Program-made: the position numbers and the translations under genes
The notes under the pieces: generated by a model
Told to the model about the DNA's origin: nothing
The model's input: the letters and a program-made list of their open reading frames with translations, nothing else
Database searches by the model: none
In this document: piece by piece, positions 2,737 through 24,471 of the stretch
Position numbering within the stretch: position 1 is the stretch's first letter
Layout of the letters: every line of letters starts with the position of its first letter
Virus record (IMG/VR): IMGVR_UViG_3300027687_002091
Span: 1-64,000 of that record
Length of the DNA stretch: 64,000 nt
Direction: 5' to 3' (one strand)
From: a virus

Positions 2737-3111
2737 ATGGAAAGTTTAATAATACTATATGGACTGTTTGTAAAACATGCTATTGCCGATTTGGCAATGC
2801 AATCGTTTAGAAAAACTCCCGGAGATAAAGCTAACCTTAGAAGTCCTAAAGGTTATATCCATGCGGGCGATCATGCAGTACTTACTTTTATAGTTATAGC
2901 TCTTTTAACTAATCATGTTGTTATGTCAATCGTAATTGCATTGTTAGATTATGTACTTCATTTTATTATTGATCACTTTAAAACAAAATTAATTCAAAAG
3001 TACAAATGGACAAATACTGATAACAAATATTGGATAGCACAGACAACCGATCAAATATTACATTATACTTGTTATCTTTTTTACATTCTTCTCTTGACAT
3101 CCACACAATAA
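2737..3111 (+). CDS. DUF3307-like integral membrane protein
   Basis: A 124-residue protein with about four hydrophobic segments. The opening HAIADLAMQSFRK, the central HAGDHAVLTFIVIALL and the LDYVLHFIIDHFKTKL block, followed by WIAQTTDQILHY, match the His/Asp-rich layout of the DUF3307 membrane family. No function is established. The C-terminal codons overlap the promoter of the downstream tmRNA (TTGACA at 3094-3099). Confidence 0.7.
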   Translation: MESLIILYGLFVKHAIADLAMQSFRKTPGDKANLRSPKGYIHAGDHAVLTFIVIALLTNHVVMSIVIALLDYVLHFIIDHFKTKLIQKYKWTNTDNKYWIAQTTDQILHYTCYLFYILLLTSTQ

Positions 3112-3122
3112 GAGTGTATAAA
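3094..3122 (+). promoter_or_regulatory. Sigma70-type promoter for tmRNA
   Basis: TTGACA 3094-3099, 17-base spacer, TATAAA 3117-3122. Transcription would begin near 3129, just ahead of the tmRNA acceptor piece. The -35 box lies within the last codons of the upstream membrane-protein gene. Confidence 0.8.
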
Positions 3123-3128
3123 TATACT

Positions 3129-3465
3129 TACAATGTTGAAGCAATTCAAACACTGGACAGGACCCGGGGGCGGTACCCGGCAACTCCACCATAAACACAT
3201 TGCACAATTAGTGTGCTTATGATGGGGTTGAAATAGGATCGACTGACGGTTAATAGAATATGTGGAGTTGTCCGGATGTAAGCTCGGTTAACGCGAACGA
3301 ACTTTATAATTGCAAAAGCAACTGTAAACAATGGCGAATTTAATTTTGTGGACTTCGGTGCATTAAACAAATTTGCCGCAACTGAGGATTTTGCCCTAGC
3401 GGCATAATCGCTCGGGGTTGGCGACTTACCTAGCAACAGAAAAGTCGCACTCTTATCCCCCAAAA
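3129..3465 (+). ncRNA. ssrA: Permuted two-piece tmRNA
   Basis: The acceptor piece comes first: a T-arm with stem CCGGG (3164-3168)/CCCGG (3176-3180) followed by CAACTCC and an encoded ACCA ending at 3191. After a short spacer the coding piece starts with GGGGTTG at 3224-3230, which pairs with CAACTCC (3181-3187) over 7 bp with one G-U, rebuilding the tRNA-like end, and continues AAATAGGATCGACTGAC as in tmRNA 5' ends. A tag frame opens at GCA 3312 (AKATVNNGEF...) and ends FALAA then TAA 3405-3407. A hairpin GCGACTT/AAGTCGC follows at 3421-3447. This permuted layout is typical of alphaproteobacteria. The exact 5' and 3' ends are approximate. Confidence 0.9.
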
Positions 3466-3572
3466 CATAAATACATCGTGCCACAAAGCACACCCTCTTA
3501 ATATAGTTTACATAACTATATGTTGTAAGACAAAGGACTTGTTTTGCAAACTTTTATATAATAGGAAAAATA

Positions 3573-15572: not shown

Positions 15573-16055
15573 ATGATCGATCCGTTCACCGCGATCGCGG
15601 CGGCTACTACAGCATTCAATACAGTTAAAAAATTTGTACACGCAGGACAAGAATTCGAAAACTGTATGGGCCAAATGGGAAAGTGGTACACTAGTGTATC
15701 TGACTTCCGTAAAGGCCAAGCGATGCAGAAGAATCCCCCAATATTTAAAAAACTATTAGCCGCAGGCTCTATTGAAGAAGAAGCTCTTAATCTATTAATA
15801 CATGAAAAGAAGATCATGGAGATGGAGTTAGAACTTCAACAAATGTTGAACATGCGTTTTGGCTTTGGCACCTGGGACGAACTAAAAGAAATGCAACGTA
15901 AGATACGTGCTGACCGACAGAAACAAGTATATGCGGCCGCTGAGGCCCAACAAGCAGTAATTAACGGAGTAGCAATTATTGCACTATTGTTTGCAGGTTG
16001 TGCAATGCTGTTTGGTATTGTGTATTTTATAGCAAAGGCAAAAGGAATGATCTAG
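15573..16055 (+). CDS. Conserved phage protein with C-terminal membrane anchor
   Basis: 160 residues. The opening MIDPFTAIAAATTAFNTVKK recurs in marine T4-like phages. A charged helical middle (about residues 60-120) is followed by a transmembrane segment GVAIIALLFAGCAMLFGIVYF near the C-terminus. The start at ATG 15573 is 11 bases after AAGGAG. The function is unknown. Confidence 0.6.
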   Translation: MIDPFTAIAAATTAFNTVKKFVHAGQEFENCMGQMGKWYTSVSDFRKGQAMQKNPPIFKKLLAAGSIEEEALNLLIHEKKIMEMELELQQMLNMRFGFGTWDELKEMQRKIRADRQKQVYAAAEAQQAVINGVAIIALLFAGCAMLFGIVYFIAKAKGMI

Positions 16056-16274: not shown

Positions 16275-16489
16275 TACATGCATTTATGTTGATGGTGCTT
16301 ATAGCAGACAAGCAACAACCTAATCCTATGTACTTTAGAAGCATTGATGTTTGTCAATACTATGCTGTACGTGTAGTTAGACAATACGGCAACTATGACC
16401 ACAGTTATCTAGTACCTAAAGAACATAGACTTACAGCGTATTGTAAGCCTGTAAAAGTACAAGACGGACCAAATATATATGATCATTAA
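16271..16489 (+). CDS. Small hypothetical protein with hydrophobic N-terminus
   Basis: 72 residues starting MIHAFMLMVLIADKQQ, possibly a short signal or anchor, then a Tyr/Cys-containing segment (DVCQYYAVRVVRQYG, LTAYCKPVKV). It overlaps the end of the convergent Fis-like gene by four bases. The function is unknown. Confidence 0.5.
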   Translation: MIHAFMLMVLIADKQQPNPMYFRSIDVCQYYAVRVVRQYGNYDHSYLVPKEHRLTAYCKPVKVQDGPNIYDH

Positions 16490-16713
16490 ACTAGTTCGTA
16501 TTTTTTTGCTTTAGCAATAAATGTAACTCTACCTAAGTCTAATGCTTTAGCGGCTTTAGTTTGGTTTCCATCGTGTTCTCTTAGAGCTTCACTTATACGT
16601 TCAATCTCTAGTTGAGCAACTTCATTATTTAGATTTGTTTGTAAATTAGTCTCAGGAAACGCTTCACCTAGTGCTTCCCATAGTCCATCTTGTTCATTTT
16701 TATATGTTGTCAT
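16486..16713 (-). CDS. Fis-like helix-turn-helix regulator
   Basis: 75 residues on the minus strand. The C-terminal half, IERISEALREHDGNQTKAAK and ALDLGRVTFIAKAKKYEL, is a Fis/NtrC-type HTH_8 domain; the N-terminal part is acidic and short. Such proteins bend and bind AT-rich DNA. The gene is transcribed away from the curli operon, with a 24-bp perfect palindrome in the shared intergenic region, so it is the obvious candidate regulator of that operon. It is much smaller than NtrC activators and lacks an ATPase domain. Confidence 0.75.
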   Translation of the reverse strand: MTTYKNEQDGLWEALGEAFPETNLQTNLNNEVAQLEIERISEALREHDGNQTKAAKALDLGRVTFIAKAKKYELV

Positions 16714-16787: not shown

Positions 16788-16795
16788 TATAAATA
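16788..16795 (+). promoter_or_regulatory. T4-late promoter box TATAAATA for the curli operon
   Basis: Exact TATAAATA 67 bases upstream of csgF. A second box, GATAAATA at 16834-16841, is 21 bases before the csgF ATG and followed by AGGAG. The operon is probably transcribed late in infection. Confidence 0.6.
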
Positions 16796-16861: not shown

Positions 16862-17332
16862 ATGTACAAAAAGTTTTTATATATAACCAGTGTAGTATTA
16901 GTAGTTTTTAGTAACGCGGCGTCCGCCGAAATGATATGGAGTTTTAAATCTCCAGCCTTCCATTATGGAAATGGTTATTCTTCACACGTTTTAAGTGTTG
17001 AACAGCTACAACATAATAGAAAGCAAGATCTTAAAGACAAGGCAGAAGCAGAGGCAAAGCGACTAGAAAGAGAATTAGAAAATACTACCCTAAACAAATT
17101 TGTTAAGAACGTTGAGTCGAGAATATACGCAACGTTAAGTAAACAGATGGTAGATAGTATGTTTGCTGATTGTGGCGCAAGTTGTGCTACCAGTGGAACA
17201 GCAGAAATCGAAGGCTCAAGCATTAGCTGGGTTAAAGACACAACAACAGGAGCGATTACGCTAACTGTTATTGAAGCCGATGGAAGCACAACTACTATTG
17301 AAATACCAGGAACAGGGAATTTTAACTTTTGA
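16862..17332 (+). CDS. csgF: CsgF-like curli assembly factor
   Basis: 156 residues with a signal peptide (cleavage after NAASA). The mature N-terminus MIWSFKSPAFHYGNGYSSHV matches the CsgF segment that inserts into the CsgG pore (aromatic-x-F-x-x-P-x-F-G-G/N). A charged helix around residues 55-80 replaces part of the usual linker, and the protein ends with the conserved pattern GSTTTIEIPG. CsgF narrows the CsgG channel and couples secretion to nucleation. An AGGAG site precedes the ATG. The last bases overlap the csgG start. Confidence 0.88.
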   Translation: MYKKFLYITSVVLVVFSNAASAEMIWSFKSPAFHYGNGYSSHVLSVEQLQHNRKQDLKDKAEAEAKRLERELENTTLNKFVKNVESRIYATLSKQMVDSMFADCGASCATSGTAEIEGSSISWVKDTTTGAITLTVIEADGSTTTIEIPGTGNFNF

Positions 17333-18264
17333 ATCGCATAATATTTTTGATAGGCATATTGTTACTTACTGGGTGCAGTAATACCATGCAACAGTCGCTG
17401 ACTATAAAGGAAAATGCTGGACCACCACGTGTACAGCCGGCTCCGTTAGCTGACAGAATGGTTTCAGTACCTGAGCTAGATGGCAAGAGAATAACTATAG
17501 CAGTTTACAGTTTTTTAGACAAAACAGGGCAACGTAAACCAGCAGATAGTATTGCTAATCTATCGAGTGCAGTAACACAAGGATCAGAAGTGTGGGTTAT
17601 AAAAGCACTAGCTGAAGTAGGCAACGAAACATGGTTCGAAGTTGTAGAACGTATAGGGATGGATAACTTGATTAAAGAAAGACAGTTGATCCGTAACACT
17701 AGAGAAGTATACGAGAAAAACTTACCGAACGGTCCAAGAGCATTGAAACCAATGGTGTTCGCAGGATTAATACTAGAAGGCGGCATAATTGGTTACGATA
17801 GCAACGTTGCTGTTGGTGGAGTAGGAGGCAGATATTTAGGCGTGGGTGCTCAAACAGAGTACAGGGTTGATACAGTCACAATAGTGATGAGAGTGGTGTC
17901 AGTCAGCACTGGTAAAGTGTTGTTAAGTATTGCAACAGAAAAGACTATTGCAAGTTCAAGGTCCGGAGCGGACGTTTTTAAGTTTTTAGACTTAGGAACT
18001 AAATTAATAGAATCGGAAACAGGTTACTCTGTTAACGAGCCAGTAAATTATGCTGTAAGGGCGGCTATTGAAGCAGGTGTAGTTCAACTGGTATACGAAG
18101 GTGAAAAGAAAGGACTTTGGAAGTTTAAAGATACAACATATAAGGGCAAGACACCAAGGCCAAGACCTCTACCATTTAACGATGCTTTAGAGAAATGGCC
18201 GGAAAGTAGACTATACTGCAACAATCAAGACTTATGTTGGCCTATAAATGACACCAAAGAATAA
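17329..18264 (+). CDS. csgG: CsgG-like curli secretion channel lipoprotein
   Basis: 311 residues from TTG 17329, which overlaps the csgF stop (TTGA). The lipoprotein signal MNRIIFLIGILLLTGC has its acylated Cys at residue 16. Family hallmarks follow: ITIAVYSFLDKTGQRKPADS, WFEVVERIGMDNLIKERQLI, GLILEGGIIGYDSNVAVGGV, GGRYLGVGAQTEYRVDTV for the barrel hairpins, RVVSVSTGKVL and NEPVNYAVRAAIEAGV. It should form the nonameric outer-membrane channel that exports curlin subunits. Length is close to bacterial CsgG (277) plus a C-terminal tail. Confidence 0.95.
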   Translation: MNRIIFLIGILLLTGCSNTMQQSLTIKENAGPPRVQPAPLADRMVSVPELDGKRITIAVYSFLDKTGQRKPADSIANLSSAVTQGSEVWVIKALAEVGNETWFEVVERIGMDNLIKERQLIRNTREVYEKNLPNGPRALKPMVFAGLILEGGIIGYDSNVAVGGVGGRYLGVGAQTEYRVDTVTIVMRVVSVSTGKVLLSIATEKTIASSRSGADVFKFLDLGTKLIESETGYSVNEPVNYAVRAAIEAGVVQLVYEGEKKGLWKFKDTTYKGKTPRPRPLPFNDALEKWPESRLYCNNQDLCWPINDTKE

Positions 18265-18272
18265 GGAGAGCA

Positions 18273-19010
18273 ATGAAAACAATAATAAGAGGGCTTTTAT
18301 TTTTAATTTTATTAGCGTCACCAACTTGGGCAAATGATATCTACATTGAGCAAGTAGGAGACACTTTAGATTTAGATATAACACAAGACGGCCAAGACAA
18401 CGTAATTGGTACTAGCAGTACCGACGTTAATTTAGCAGGAGCGAATATGACTTTTGCAATAACACAAACAGGTAGTTTTAACCAAATTATCGCAAACATA
18501 AGAGGTGCCAGTTATACAGGCGCTTGGACATTTACAGGCGATAGTAACACAGTGGATCTAAGTTGTGATAGCACATCAGGAACTAATTGTGAAAACATTA
18601 CCATGAACATAACCGCATCAGGTAGCTCAAATGCATTTACATTTGATATAGGTGATACAGCAGATGCTGATGGATCAACCATTGGATTTACAGTTACGGG
18701 ATCAAACAACGTAATTAATTCAAACGTTGACGGCAAGAGTGCTGTAATAGCAGTTACAGTTAACAACAGTTCAAGTTTAGCAAGTGGAGGTGCATCTAAT
18801 ACAGCAAGCACACTTTCATCAACTGGATCAGGTAACGTAATTGACTTTGACATTGACGGAGACGGCGATAGTTCAGGACACTCAGTAACACTAAATGTTA
18901 CAGGTGGCGGAAGTAGTTACGATGTTACACAAAGTGGAATATATGATAATACGATAGACGCTGACTTCTCTGGGGACGGTCAAGACGTTGACATTATACA
19001 AAGGGACTAA
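18273..19010 (+). CDS. Curlin-like amyloid subunit 1
   Basis: 245 residues with a signal peptide (cleavage after SPTWA). The mature protein starts NDIYIEQVGDTLDLDITQDG and carries curlin-type repeats such as ITQDGQDNVI, ITQTGSFNQI and DVTQSGIYDNTI; the central repeats are more degenerate and Asp/Ser/Asn-rich. It resembles CsgA/CsgB-family subunits exported through CsgG. A Cys pair (about 11 residues apart, CDSTSGTNC) is unusual for curlins. The weaker repeats may suit a nucleator role, but I cannot decide this from sequence. Confidence 0.8.
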   Translation: MKTIIRGLLFLILLASPTWANDIYIEQVGDTLDLDITQDGQDNVIGTSSTDVNLAGANMTFAITQTGSFNQIIANIRGASYTGAWTFTGDSNTVDLSCDSTSGTNCENITMNITASGSSNAFTFDIGDTADADGSTIGFTVTGSNNVINSNVDGKSAVIAVTVNNSSSLASGGASNTASTLSSTGSGNVIDFDIDGDGDSSGHSVTLNVTGGGSSYDVTQSGIYDNTIDADFSGDGQDVDIIQRD

Positions 19011-19011
19011 C

Positions 19012-20169
19012 ATGGCTCCAAACAGGCTAACATTTATATTGTTAGCAATGTTATTTTTACTCGCTACGCTGATAGAACCAGCCTATGGTAAAAATGCGGG
19101 ATCAATTAGTCAAGTAAAAGGAAGTGGTGTGTTAGAGCGTGGCGCCGATGTCGTTATAGACGGCAAAGTAGGTGCCGGCGTTCAAAGTATGGACACAGCC
19201 GTAACAGCAAACGGTACCATGCGTATTGACTTTATAGACGAAACTCGAGTTGAGCTTACTGAACAATCAAGATTAGTTATTGACGAATTTGTATACGATC
19301 CTGCTAACGATATAGGATCGTTGTCAATGAAAGCGTCATTAGGAACAGTAAGGTACGCAAGCGGACAAATTGCTAAAAAATATAAACAAAATGTAAAGAT
19401 AAGCACTCCGAGTGCTACTATTGGTGTACGTGGTACAGATTTCATAATGGTTGTTGATGAAGTTGGAGGAAGTATGATTACACTACTTCCAAGTTGTGAT
19501 ACAGCAGGTATGTGTTATGTGGGTGAAATAAAAGTAGAAACTGATGCTGGATTTGTTATTATGAATAAAGCATTTCAAGCAACAGCAACAACACATGGTA
19601 TGCGTAAACCAACTCCTCCAGTAATACTAGATCTAAACGAAGATCAAATTAACAACTTATTACTATTGCGTAAACGAAGTCCAATTGATGAATACGCAGA
19701 AGAAGAAATACAAAGACGTAGAAAACTAGCAGATTTTTTAGGTGTAGACTTTTTAGAGTTTGATGGGCTAGACGGAGACGCTCTCAAAGACAGTATTGAA
19801 GGCATTTGGGCAACAGCACTAGACGAAACAGACTTTATGTTAGCAGATATGCTACATGATATGTTAGACAAACTTAACGAAGCACTGGCGGCATTATTTA
19901 GAGATGAACTAGCAAGACAAAATGCTAGACTATTAACAAACGTACCAACAGTAGGATTTGATCCTAAAACACAAATTAGATTAGATATTGAAGAGCCGTT
20001 TTATGTTTGGCAACGTGAAGACTTTGGCCAAGGCGGATTTATTAGGTTAAGATTAAATAACATGCACGATTATACACTAGACGTACAACAAGGGGAGTTC
20101 TTTCTATATGACTATAGATTGGGTAGCGAAGGCACTAATAGTATTACTATTATTCAAACCAACAACTAG
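19012..20169 (+). CDS. FecR-domain secreted protein
   Basis: 385 residues from ATG 19012; an upstream in-frame ATG at 18988 would overlap the curlin gene. A signal peptide (FILLAMLFLLATLIEPAYG) is followed by a FecR domain over about residues 30-170: GSGVLERGADVVIDGKVG, TRVELTEQSRLVIDEF, GSLSMKASLGTVRYASGQ and the hallmark ISTPSATIGVRGTDFIM. A long charged helical region (about 215-310) and a C-terminal beta part follow. FecR domains sense periplasmic signals and are common partners of CHASE2 cyclases. The 3' end overlaps the next curlin gene by 62 bases. Confidence 0.88.
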   Translation: MAPNRLTFILLAMLFLLATLIEPAYGKNAGSISQVKGSGVLERGADVVIDGKVGAGVQSMDTAVTANGTMRIDFIDETRVELTEQSRLVIDEFVYDPANDIGSLSMKASLGTVRYASGQIAKKYKQNVKISTPSATIGVRGTDFIMVVDEVGGSMITLLPSCDTAGMCYVGEIKVETDAGFVIMNKAFQATATTHGMRKPTPPVILDLNEDQINNLLLLRKRSPIDEYAEEEIQRRRKLADFLGVDFLEFDGLDGDALKDSIEGIWATALDETDFMLADMLHDMLDKLNEALAALFRDELARQNARLLTNVPTVGFDPKTQIRLDIEEPFYVWQREDFGQGGFIRLRLNNMHDYTLDVQQGEFFLYDYRLGSEGTNSITIIQTNN

Positions 20170-21289
20170 TTGGGCTAATGATATTTACATCTACCAGGCT
20201 GGTGATAACATTGACTTGACTATAGTTCAAGACGGTGAAAATAATGTTATCAGTTCGGTTGCTGGTAACACTAGGAAAGCCCCTATTAGCGGTAATAACA
20301 CAAGCACAACATTTACACAAACAGGCGACAACAATGATATAGGAGTGTATATGAGTGCTGGCAATGGACAGCAGACAATTACACAAACAGGTAATACTAA
20401 CTATGCTACGTCAGACTGTCACGGCAACAACTGTTCAACAACCATTACGCAAAATGGTAACAACAACTTAGCAAATTTAGAGTTTGGTAACGGCGGCGAT
20501 AGCGACCAAACTGGTACAATTACACAAGACGGCAACTACAATGCGGCTGGTATAGAAGCAAATGGTGATGACAATACTTTTGTTGTAGATCAAGACGGAG
20601 ACAACAATGCTGTTGGAGGGATTACCGGTGCACCGATTACTGGTGATAATAATATACTATCAATAACACAAGATGGCGACTACATGACTTTTGAAGGAAA
20701 TCTTACAGGTAGTAATAATAGTTTAACATCATTTCAAGGCGGAAGCGCCGACAGTAGTTTTATACGTGCTAGTACAGTTGGCAGTAACAACACAGGCAAC
20801 CTACGCCAAGGTAAGAAGATGGACGGAACAGTTGACAACAACGACAGTGGTAACTTTGAACAGTACGTAACCGTCAACGGCGATAGCAATACTATTAATA
20901 CTTCACAAGTAAACAGTGGTGGAACAAGTTCAGATCATCACATGGCACATATCATAACAGGTGACGGCAACACACTAAGCCACTTGCAATATGCAGATAA
21001 GAAAAAACAAGGCTTCATTGAAATAACAGGCGATGACAATACAGTTACACTTGAACAAAGAAATAGTTCAAATCACTTTGCAGACATTAATGTAACAGGA
21101 GATGATCATACAGTAACTGGTGTACAACGTGGCGGCGCCTATGCACATAACTTCTCTGTTGATCTAACTAACTCTGGTGGTGCATACAATTTGTCAACTA
21201 CACAAAACTCAAACACAGCACAAACTTATAGTCTAACTGGCAGTTGTGTCACAGTAGGCGGATGTGCAGTTAGTGTTGTTCAATACTAA
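20108..21289 (+). CDS. Curlin-like amyloid subunit 2 (major, repeat-rich)
   Basis: 393 residues with a signal peptide (cleavage after TTSWA) and the same mature start as subunit 1 (NDIYIYQAGDNIDLTIVQDG). Canonical curlin repeats with Gln-x-Gly-x-x-Asn are frequent: FTQTGDNNDI, ITQTGNTNYA, ITQNGNNNLA, ITQDGNYNAA, VDQDGDNNAV, ITQDGDYM. It ends in AVSVVQY. Two Cys pairs (DCHGNNC and SCVTVGGC) are notable. A GGGGAG ribosome site precedes ATG 20108 inside the FecR gene, implying coupled expression. It should form the bulk of a fibre exported by CsgG. Confidence 0.88.
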   Translation: MTIDWVAKALIVLLLFKPTTSWANDIYIYQAGDNIDLTIVQDGENNVISSVAGNTRKAPISGNNTSTTFTQTGDNNDIGVYMSAGNGQQTITQTGNTNYATSDCHGNNCSTTITQNGNNNLANLEFGNGGDSDQTGTITQDGNYNAAGIEANGDDNTFVVDQDGDNNAVGGITGAPITGDNNILSITQDGDYMTFEGNLTGSNNSLTSFQGGSADSSFIRASTVGSNNTGNLRQGKKMDGTVDNNDSGNFEQYVTVNGDSNTINTSQVNSGGTSSDHHMAHIITGDGNTLSHLQYADKKKQGFIEITGDDNTVTLEQRNSSNHFADINVTGDDHTVTGVQRGGAYAHNFSVDLTNSGGAYNLSTTQNSNTAQTYSLTGSCVTVGGCAVSVVQY

Positions 21290-21297
21290 CATAAATA
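21290..21297 (+). promoter_or_regulatory. T4-late-like box directly before the cyclase ATG
   Basis: CATAAATA ends five bases before ATG 21302. No Shine-Dalgarno sequence is seen, so transcription from this box would give an almost leaderless mRNA. Confidence 0.45.
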
Positions 21298-21301
21298 CAG
21301 T

Positions 21302-23353
21302 ATGACGAAGTATATCACACATTGGGCCGTGGTTTTTATTACGGCTTTTATCATGATAGGTTTACACTACGGTGATGGTTCCCTGGTGCAAACAGCTCGC
21401 CTTAAGCAATTCGACTTACTTCAGCAAACTGATAAGGCAACATTATCCCAAGATGTTGGCATCGTAACCATTGACGAAGCCGCCATTGAAAAGTACGGTC
21501 AGTGGCCTTGGAAGCGTGATATAATTGCAGATATAATCTGGAAACTTCGCGAAGCAGGTGCTGGTATCATCGTAATCCCTGTTATCATGTCAGAAACAGA
21601 TAGATTAGGTGGTGATATTGAATTAGCCAAAGCACTTGCGGGTAACGGTGTTGTAATAGCACAAGTAGGAAGTACCCAAGCCAATCGTAATGCGGTCCCA
21701 AGAGGCATTGCGAAAATTGGCGAGCCTGTGCCATATATGTTTGAATGGCCAGGTATGTTAGGACCAATCCAATTGCTAGGAGATAATGCCGACGGTGTGG
21801 GCGTGTTGAACACGAATCCAGAAATCGACGGTGTAGTAAGACGAGTACCTCTCCTGATGCGTGTCGGCGAAGATACGTATCCCGCTTTAGCAATTGAAGT
21901 TATTCGTGTTGCAACAGGAAACCCTAGTTACCAAGTTAAGGAAGCTGGCGGTGGAATTGAAGCAGTACGAGTTCCTGGTTACCCAATTATAAAAACAGAT
22001 CCTAATGCACAGATATGGTTACGTTGGAATAAAGAATTCGAAACTATTAGTGCGGCTTCAGATGATTATAGATTATTTGAAGGTAAGACTGTTATTATAG
22101 GAGTAACCGCAGAAGGCATAGGTGGTTTAATCGCTAGTCCGACTGGACCACAACACAACTATATACCAGCCGCAGTAACACTTCAAACTGTGATAGATGG
22201 CGATCAAATCGAGCGTCCCTATTGGGCATTCTTAGCAGAGCTTATCACAACCGGACTACTAGGCATAGCTTTAGTGTGCGTTGGAAGGTTTGCCCCTTAC
22301 TGGTTAGCTGGAGGATTATTAGTTGTGTTTGTGGGAGGACTCACTTATGGCGTACACTATGCATGGGTAAACTATTTGTACTTGTTAGATGGTACAATGC
22401 CTATGGTAACAATATTTGTAGTAGGCTTACATGCAATTTTTAATAGATTTGTAAGTGAGTATACACAGAAACAAGCAATTAAGAAACAGTTTGGGGGCTA
22501 TGCTAGTCCTACTGTAGTTAAACTGTTACAAGAGAATCCAGCACTTATCAAAGACGGTCAGAAGAAAGAAGTCTCAATTGTATTCTCAGACTTGCGTGGC
22601 TTTACTCCTTTGGGCGAAAGCTTCGGTGATGACGTTAAAGGATTGACTAAGATTATGAATGGGTATATGGACAGCATTACGCAACCTGTACTCGACAGTG
22701 ACGGAATGATTATTAAATACATTGGGGACGCAAGTATGCACATACACAATGCACCCATAGACGATGTAAATCACGCTAAGACAGCAGTACAGTGCGGCTT
22801 AGACATGCTTAAAGCAGTGGAGAAGTTCAATGACGAAGTTATTAAACCAGAAGGAAGACCACCAGTTGGAATGGGGGCAGGAATCAATACCGGCCTTGGC
22901 TATATTGGAGAAATGGGTAGCACCGCAAGACATTCGTACGATGTACTCGGGGACGCCGTTAGTACAGCCGCAAGAATTGAAAGCAAGTGTAAAGAATACG
23001 GTTGCGTCCTCTTAGTAGGAGGAGCTACAGTTGAACAATGTAAAGATGACTTTATGTTCCTTAAAGTAGACGACTTAGCTGTTAAAGGTAAAACAGTTGG
23101 TGTTGCTATATACACAGTATTAGATGATGTTAAGAAGCATTACGAAGCAAGCAAACGCAGACACGATGGAATGCATACACTATATCAGCAACAGAAGTTT
23201 AGTGAAGCAATTAAAGAGTGCGATAAGTTAAAGCCGCAGTTTGAAGGCAAACTAGAAGGCTATTACGACATGTGGATTGAACGCTGTGAGTATATGCTAA
23301 CACAAGACTTGCCTAAGGATTGGAATGGCGTGTTTATTGCGACTTCGAAGTAG
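21302..23353 (+). CDS. CHASE2-domain adenylate/guanylate cyclase
   Basis: 683 residues. An N-terminal membrane segment (ITHWAVVFITAFIMIGLHY) is followed by an extracytoplasmic CHASE2 domain (about 35-300, with VGIVTIDEAAIEKYGQWPW, a family hallmark), three membrane helices (about 305-385) and a class III cyclase domain (about 415-610). Catalytic features: metal Asp in VSIVFSDLRGFTPLG, KYIGDASMHIHNAP with the second metal Asp, GINTGLGYIGEMGS, and DVLGDAVSTAARIESKC. It should turn a periplasmic signal, perhaps via the FecR protein, into cAMP or cGMP. Substrate specificity is not assigned. Confidence 0.93.
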   Translation: MTKYITHWAVVFITAFIMIGLHYGDGSLVQTARLKQFDLLQQTDKATLSQDVGIVTIDEAAIEKYGQWPWKRDIIADIIWKLREAGAGIIVIPVIMSETDRLGGDIELAKALAGNGVVIAQVGSTQANRNAVPRGIAKIGEPVPYMFEWPGMLGPIQLLGDNADGVGVLNTNPEIDGVVRRVPLLMRVGEDTYPALAIEVIRVATGNPSYQVKEAGGGIEAVRVPGYPIIKTDPNAQIWLRWNKEFETISAASDDYRLFEGKTVIIGVTAEGIGGLIASPTGPQHNYIPAAVTLQTVIDGDQIERPYWAFLAELITTGLLGIALVCVGRFAPYWLAGGLLVVFVGGLTYGVHYAWVNYLYLLDGTMPMVTIFVVGLHAIFNRFVSEYTQKQAIKKQFGGYASPTVVKLLQENPALIKDGQKKEVSIVFSDLRGFTPLGESFGDDVKGLTKIMNGYMDSITQPVLDSDGMIIKYIGDASMHIHNAPIDDVNHAKTAVQCGLDMLKAVEKFNDEVIKPEGRPPVGMGAGINTGLGYIGEMGSTARHSYDVLGDAVSTAARIESKCKEYGCVLLVGGATVEQCKDDFMFLKVDDLAVKGKTVGVAIYTVLDDVKKHYEASKRRHDGMHTLYQQQKFSEAIKECDKLKPQFEGKLEGYYDMWIERCEYMLTQDLPKDWNGVFIATSK

Positions 23354-23510: not shown

Positions 23511-23646
23511 ACCTTGAAGCTGACTTTGGAACATCTCTACAGTCTTTGCAGTTGCATTTAAAACAGACGTCATTTGCACACTCTTCGCAGTCTTCGTCTC
23601 TATGGCACTTATGTCCACATGTACTACATTGGCTGTCGTCGATCAA
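23497..23646 (-). CDS. Cysteine-rich 49-residue protein
   Basis: A short minus-strand frame from TTG 23646, overlapping the stop of the upstream membrane-protein gene (ATTGATC). The product has nine Cys in 30 residues: CSTCGHKCHRDEDC then EECANDVCFKCNCKDC, suggesting metal binding. It ends in TAG at 23497-23499 and overlaps the start of the following zinc-finger gene (TATGAACACGGATAG). The dense Cys spacing is unlikely by chance, but the gene is not supported by any homologue I can name. Confidence 0.55.
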   Translation of the reverse strand: MIDDSQCSTCGHKCHRDEDCEECANDVCFKCNCKDCRDVPKSASRYEHG

Positions 23647-23972
23647 TCTTTTTTACCCGTACTATTAAAAGGGTTGTTAGTTGTGTCTGAATACTTTGCA
23701 ACTATATCTTCTAGTTCAGCTCTACGTGCTTTATCTAATTTAGCTTCGTTTTCTAATACCATGCTTAACTTTGTGTTTAAGCGAATGATATCATTGTCTA
23801 ACATGCGTACACGATCAACTAGTTTAATTAGTGTACCCATAGTAGCACCTATAACAGGATCAATAGTTTCAGTTACCCACTTCCATATAAAGTATATAAA
23901 ATACCCCATACCTAATGCGGCAACTACTGGAAATCCTAGGTCTTTAATTGTGTTAGTTAAGTCTGCTTCCAT
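23643..23972 (-). CDS. Membrane protein with coiled-coil tail (paralogue A)
   Basis: 109 residues. The N-terminal LTNTIKDLGFPVVAALGMGY starts a membrane segment, followed by a coiled coil (about residues 45-95) and a polar C-terminus. It is similar in layout and opening sequence to the protein at 24193-24471 (KDLGFPIAGALGAGAFVF). Small proteins with one membrane helix and a coiled tail can be holins or spanin-like, but that is only a possibility here. Confidence 0.6.
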   Translation of the reverse strand: MEADLTNTIKDLGFPVVAALGMGYFIYFIWKWVTETIDPVIGATMGTLIKLVDRVRMLDNDIIRLNTKLSMVLENEAKLDKARRAELEDIVAKYSDTTNNPFNSTGKKD

Positions 23973-24192: not shown

Positions 24193-24471
24193 TTAATCGC
24201 GTCTTGCATCGTCCTTGCCTTCGTTAGCGGCAATTCTGTCTACGTTTGGTTTAATATGTAGTGCGTGGCTCATTAATGCATCAATCTTAACTAAGTCGTT
24301 GTTCATAGTTTGAACACGATTGTCAAGAGATCCAATAATATTTTTGAGTGTAGTTACTGAATCAGTAACTCCAGCTAGTATAAATTTTAGTGTTAGGAAA
24401 ACAAAGGCCCCTGCACCCAGTGCTCCGGCTATTGGAAACCCCAAATCTTTTGCTAATGTTAAAAAATCCAT
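24193..24471 (-). CDS. Membrane protein with coiled-coil tail (paralogue B)
   Basis: 92 residues; LAKDLGFPIAGALGAGAFVF and the following hydrophobic residues make one membrane helix, then a heptad-like region (TLKNIIGSLDNRVQTMNNDL) and a charged tail. Shared KDLGFP opening with paralogue A shows a duplication. Late lysis or envelope function is possible but unproven. Confidence 0.6.
   Translation of the reverse strand: MDFLTLAKDLGFPIAGALGAGAFVFLTLKFILAGVTDSVTTLKNIIGSLDNRVQTMNNDLVKIDALMSHALHIKPNVDRIAANEGKDDARRD

Follow-up and report, generated by a model that had tools for sequence, protein, structure and literature searches.

Pelagiphages, both podo- and myophages, have been reported to carry a type VIII secretion system (T8SS) module encoding, in this order, CsgF, CsgG, a CsgA/B protein, a FecR protein, a second CsgA/B protein and a cyclase (PMC9599517, mSystems 2022); the module is expressed in metatranscriptomes, and its origin was given as alphaproteobacterial. 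Two other studies identified csgF and csgG only, and csgA/B were said to be missing (PMC7029224, PMC9004378); the deposited record of the cultured phage Melnitz (EXVC044M) already has FecR and both curlins annotated. Bacteria offer two partial parallels: curli operons of the alphaproteobacterial type, in which csgF, csgG and curlin genes are likewise found, often in that order; and a FecR-domain protein encoded beside a CHASE2 cyclase, as in the phages, which has been described as a gene cluster in Campylobacterota (PMC9239204).

Here a cassette with the same gene content as the pelagiphage module (that of PMC9599517, HTVC008M and Melnitz) is analyzed in a 64,000-base stretch of DNA from a marine virus that infects bacteria, positions 1 to 64,000 of IMG/VR virus record IMGVR_UViG_3300027687_002091, which is 69,067 bases in full; this whole stretch is termed the window. 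An earlier note, made from the letters of the window alone, had singled out the joint arrangement of FecR, cyclase and curli genes as possibly new; that does not hold, inasmuch as the arrangement has been published (PMC9599517). The cassette is thus already known, and what is added here is a reinterpretation, together with the tests that it makes possible. The points reread are the architecture of FecR, the divergence of the cyclase catalytic site, a late promoter and a pair of small membrane proteins flanking the cassette, the last two being additions beyond that sequence-only reading. The favored interpretation, to which a probability of about 0.5 is given, is that the cassette provides late curli-like export in which FecR serves as a periplasmic adaptor between the fiber and the CHASE2 sensor.

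Gene content, order and late-promoter placement

Six intact open reading frames (ORFs), free of internal stops, span positions 16862-23353 of the + strand and encode CsgF, CsgG, a curlin-like protein, a FecR-domain protein, a second curlin and a CHASE2 class III cyclase (Table 1). Their coordinates bear out the close packing on one strand that the earlier note described: csgF and csgG overlap by 4 bases, 8 bases separate csgG from curlin 1, FecR and curlin 2 overlap by 62 bases, and a gap of 12 bases precedes the cyclase. An alternative ATG start would place FecR at 19012-20169, leaving one base between it and curlin 1. The gene identities first assigned by eye are recovered by Pfam for CsgF, CsgG, FecR, curlin 2, CHASE2 and the cyclase domain; curlin 1 falls under the cut-off.

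Table 1. Positions of the cassette genes and of neighboring features in the window
Feature	Position	Strand	Remarks
csgF	16862-17332	+	156 aa; Pfam CsgF 3.1e-13; family kept across phage loci
csgG	17329-18264	+	311 aa; TTG start; outer-membrane export channel lipoprotein; Pfam CsgG 3.9e-47
curlin 1	18273-19010	+	245 aa; conserved, curlin-like; Pfam Curlin_rpt sub-threshold, 0.05
FecR-domain protein	18988-20169	+	393 aa from TTG; Pfam FecR 1.3e-8
FecR C-terminal curlin-like strands	20056-20157	+	about residues 357-390; end N-x-I-x-I-x-Q
curlin 2	20108-21289	+	393 aa; fast-diverging; Pfam Curlin_rpt 8.6e-15, five stretches
CHASE2 class III cyclase	21302-23353	+	683 aa; Pfam CHASE2 2.7e-38, Guanylate_cyc 9.6e-18
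Cyclase residues S545 and S554	22934-22963	+	non-canonical active site; S/S in 62/94 phage cyclases
T4-type late promoter motif TATAAATA	16788-16795	+	74 bases 5' of csgF
Fis-type helix-turn-helix protein	16486-16713	-	HTH_8 5e-11; divergent from csgF
Small single-transmembrane protein	23643-23972	-	PHROG 18771; first of paralogous pair
Small single-transmembrane protein	24193-24471	-	PHROG 18771; second of paralogous pair
160-aa protein	15573-16055	+	C-terminal hydrophobic stretch
Phage tmRNA	3077-3498	+	matches alpha_tmRNA and tmRNA_permuted

Scans of viral sequences yielded at least 528 relatives of FecR and at least 390 of CsgG. From these, 164 loci were fetched via FecR or CsgG, so that their composition describes loci having those genes and gives no rate among phages. 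Nearly all of these loci that were sufficiently long have the order csgF-csgG-curlin-FecR-curlin-cyclase, although in some of them additional genes precede the cyclase. In the cultured phages HTVC008M and Melnitz, too, all six genes lie on one strand in this order. Comparison with near relatives gives dN/dS ratios of about 0.07-0.25 for five of the genes and about 0.19-0.36 for curlin 2. Because a GC-rich contig (L139, 62% GC) has csgF, csgG, a curlin, FecR and the cyclase (F-G-c-R-Y), the module is not confined to AT-rich phages.

Several individual loci merit mention. ORFs of 612-664 aa with secretion-like N-termini lie between curlin 2 and the cyclase in three loci (L117:12544-14382, L034:10349-12247 and L045:10375-12369) and may encode extra cargo; the one in L117 has no Pfam match. 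Four cassette-bearing phage contigs (L165-L168) had been binned in bacterial metagenome-assembled genomes (MAGs) of Pirellulales, Rhodobacteraceae and Flavobacteriaceae, and in one of them (L168) the cyclase is divided between two ORFs. Another locus (L004, OR851715.1) is an unverified 1.5 kb 'Salmonella phage' wastewater record of doubtful origin, whose csgG is 40% identical to that of the window.

The motif TATAAATA ahead of csgF occurs in 45 of 111 distinct csgF upstream regions, as against 2.7% of random 180-base stretches, and is absent ahead of csgG (0/113) and ahead of fecR (0/100). Its total count is not enriched across the window; hence the case for a promoter depends on its position across many phages, which places a predicted late promoter before the first gene of the cassette. 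No riboswitch or other RNA family was found upstream of csgF.

The export channel is clearly assigned: CsgG matches the solved Escherichia coli CsgG structures over residues 1-268 (E 1.8e-51), and the CsgG, CsgF and curlin-repeat components of a type VIII system are all recognized by Pfam, the last in curlin 2, which has five repeats above the Curlin_rpt cut-off. Curlin 1 scores 14.0 bits against a cut-off of 20.7. It is nevertheless accepted as a curlin because it belongs to a profile shared among phages, has an invariant N-terminal N-x-I-Y-x-x-Q-x-G motif and a conserved terminal repeat, and is all or mostly beta in an AlphaFold2 model (pLDDT 87.6); a Foldseek search with this model gave no PDB match under E 0.001. 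Curlin 2 is only 40-49% identical to its relatives, versus mostly 70-88% for the other cassette genes (mostly 82-86% for FecR), and is probably the exposed fiber. The lack of CsgE pointed out in the earlier note agrees with a profile search in which nothing exceeded the cut-off; that search covered two related phages with complete genomes and five further virus records, a set outside which the window's own record fell. CsgE is likewise missing from many bacterial lineages outside Gammaproteobacteria (PMC9599517).

FecR architecture and the cyclase catalytic site

In the AlphaFold2 model of FecR (pLDDT 84), a signal helix (residues 13-27) is followed by a beta domain (about 38-201), from which a helical linker leads to a further beta part at the C-terminus (323-390). 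Since the signal or membrane helix begins after only about 12 residues, the phage protein has no N-terminal cytoplasmic anti-sigma domain, although it does possess the FecR domain. Nor did Pfam reveal a FecI sigma factor or a FecA (TonB) receptor, either in the six genes of the cassette or in those flanking ORFs that were scanned. In Foldseek the beta domain matches periplasmic domains of anti-sigma factors, including PupR, and also the cell surface anchoring domain of an RTX adhesin (5ix9; 63 columns, rmsd 1.4, target TM 0.74, 25% identity); a profile search gives a weak match to the same region. The E-values are weak (0.031 and 0.55), so that the match denotes likeness of fold and not family membership. 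Hence the name 'FecR sensor' used in the earlier note is right about the domain and imprecise about the protein, which lacks the anti-sigma architecture and more closely resembles an adaptor or an anchor.

The C-terminal end of FecR follows a firm pattern: N-x-I-x-I-x-Q is found in 99 of 103 phage FecR proteins, versus 1 of 80 bacterial FecR proteins and 4 of 1005 other ORFs. When the profile of the curlin 1 terminus is applied to FecR tails, the median score is 4.0 bits, compared with -0.9 for shuffled tails; this is suggestive of homology between the tail and curlin repeats, none of which Pfam detects in the tail.

The cyclase belongs among the CHASE2 sensors, its CHASE2 domain being accompanied by four hydrophobic segments. 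Within the catalytic domain the two metal-binding aspartates (D430 and D476), the substrate lysine (K472) and the transition-state arginine (R558) are retained; Ser545 replaces the adenine-site Asp (or Thr) and Ser554 the transition-state Asn, so that the protein departs from a canonical adenylate cyclase. Among 94 phage cyclases, this serine pair (S/S) occurs in 62, including those of the window and Melnitz, and the canonical pair (D/N) in 30, including that of HTVC008M; the transition-state Asn is retained in all 30 of the nearest bacterial catalytic domains found. Within this sample, phages alone have the S/S site. In a phylogenetic tree the S/S catalytic domains form one clade (support 100/98), whereas their CHASE2 halves are spread over several clades shared with D/N types, from which it follows that sensors have swapped their catalytic domain. 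In class III cyclases replacement of the Asn need not abolish activity, and the purifying selection on the gene argues that the cyclase is functional.

Bacterial relatives and co-variation of module parts

Bacterial relatives of FecR were sought in one genome per species; the four top matches were the MAG-binned phage contigs mentioned above and were set apart. A CHASE2 cyclase is present in 25 of the other 76 bacterial FecR loci, usually as the next gene, and csg genes in none of the 76. Conversely, none of 26 bacterial csgG neighborhoods, drawn from alphaproteobacterial and wider proteobacterial samples, contains FecR or a CHASE2 cyclase, and most contain curlins. When genomes with a FecR locus were searched for CsgG, 15 of 17 had no match and one more had only a marginal one. 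An origin of the cassette as a single bacterial block is accordingly rejected for the 76 FecR and 26 csgG loci; within the sample searched, the cassette appears to combine two modules that are separate in bacteria. The phage version differs from each of its bacterial counterparts: from the curli operons in having FecR and the cyclase (and, as in the records searched for it, no CsgE), and from the FecR-CHASE2 pair in its linkage to csg genes, in the curlin-type end of FecR and in those catalytic domains that have lost the Asn.

Co-variation was examined in 62 modules by ranking distances and controlling for all other parts, curlin 2 included, with subsampling. CHASE2 is most closely tied to the beta domain of FecR, which ranks first among its partners in 99.6% of subsamples (partial rank correlation 0.31, a value reached in 0 of 500 permutations), and not to csgG, csgF or the curlins; its own catalytic domain barely co-varies with it. 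The csgF-csgG pair, a known complex that served as a control, gave 0.40 and was the top pairing in 84% of subsamples, as expected. Label permutation leaves shared ancestry in, so that the co-variation is supporting evidence and no proof of contact; together with the adjacency of the two genes in bacteria, it supports a partnership between FecR and CHASE2.

Interpretation of the cassette and its flanking genes

Under the favored interpretation, the infected cell would gain, from an operon expressed late, a type VIII channel of CsgG with CsgF, through which the conserved curlin 1 and the fast-diverging curlin 2 would leave. FecR would be exported as well, its beta domain remaining folded in the periplasm and contacting the CHASE2 sensor instead of acting as an iron-responsive anti-sigma factor, while its curlin-like tail would associate with the fiber or with the export channel. 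CHASE2 could then read the state of export or fiber assembly late in infection and pass it to the cell interior through the catalytic domain. The coupling of export to cyclic-nucleotide signaling suggested in the earlier note fits the gene set; its output is not assured, given the non-canonical active site. A stronger version is put forward more tentatively: phages may have fused two unrelated bacterial modules into a fiber-sensing device, in which a curlin-type tail gained by FecR ties CHASE2 to the fiber, and in which the catalytic domain, having evolved a Ser/Ser site specific to phages and been shuffled between sensors, yields another product or does no more than bind nucleotide.

Several observations weigh against the adaptor interpretation. 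The likeness between FecR tail and curlin is weak by profile (best score 10.8 bits; hhalign P 0.0019, probability 14%), and the tail weakly matches an extracellular adherence protein domain instead (E 0.02). A first co-variation run suggested that the tail tracks curlin 1; this was dropped, as the signal was not robust, appearing in 0.6% of subsamples when the analysis was rerun with subsampling, a shorter tail, distances taken as ranks and curlin 2 included. No cyclic-nucleotide-binding protein was found in the window's record, the two complete phages or the five other virus records; any output must therefore act on the host or via another partner. Finally, no clumping was seen in Melnitz cultures (PMC9004378).

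The last observation also counts against a purpose outside the cell, namely that fibers or a modified surface help siblings capture new hosts or block superinfection, with FecR and CHASE2 as mere export housekeeping. This has been proposed (PMC7029224, PMC9599517), and the rapid divergence of curlin 2 suits an exposed protein; late expression, however, leaves little time for aggregation before lysis. Taken as a whole it is unlikely, although as the purpose of the fiber it is compatible with the adaptor interpretation. It is doubtful, too, that the CsgG/CsgF pore serves lysis timing, as a gated secretin or in a pinholin-like manner, with fibers secondary or absent. The late-promoter placement agrees with such a role, as does the PHROG 18771 pair, whose members resemble holins in size and topology and which adjoins the cassette in 44 of 45 loci having both flanks, its place being either just ahead of csgF or, as in the window, beyond the cassette on the opposite strand. 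Lysis is indeed one possible role for the pair; neither Pfam nor PHROGs calls these proteins holins, and they could not be so classed. Moreover, holins work in the inner membrane, while CsgG is a lipoprotein of the outer one, and a lysis pore leaves unexplained why two curlins, FecR and CHASE2 are under purifying selection. The proposal was made for Melnitz (PMC9004378) by reasoning from absent csgA/B, yet that phage's deposited record has annotated curlin genes.

The published reading (PMC9599517), in which FecR regulates the curli module in response to iron and the cyclase makes cAMP, is improbable: the Pfam FecR domain and the fold shared with PupR and other anti-sigma periplasmic domains favor it, but the short segment before the helix cannot accommodate a cytoplasmic anti-sigma domain, the cassette includes neither a sigma factor nor a TonB receptor, and two canonical residues of the cyclase, the Asp and the Asn, are missing. 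The possibility of misassembly, of chimeric bacterial DNA or of gene decay has only the bacterial look of the genes in its favor; the order shared by two cultured phages and nearly all sufficiently long loci, the purifying selection (dN/dS about 0.07-0.36) and the viral nature of the record refute it, leaving it next to no probability.

The PHROG 18771 proteins may be what PMC9599517 calls histidine kinases ('HK, sometimes two') preceding csgF; their median length, 93 residues, is too small for a kinase. The Fis-type helix-turn-helix protein, whose gene lies ahead of csgF and diverges from it in about 28 loci, is a possible regulator; a copy of TATAAATA precedes its start codon by only about 6 bases. 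The 160-aa protein is upstream of csgF in 13 ORF matches and downstream in 16, so that its position relative to the cassette shifts. At the tmRNA of the window no glutamine riboswitch was found, unlike what was reported for Melnitz.

Widespread as the cassette is among viruses that infect very abundant bacteria of the ocean, earlier papers disagree as to whether it is a fiber system, a lysis pore or a means of iron regulation. The present comparisons suggest that the earlier readings of FecR as an iron regulator, and perhaps of the small membrane proteins as histidine kinases, were made on weak grounds; and they yield specific questions, namely whether FecR binds CHASE2, whether the FecR tail enters the curlin fiber, and what the Ser/Ser cyclase produces.

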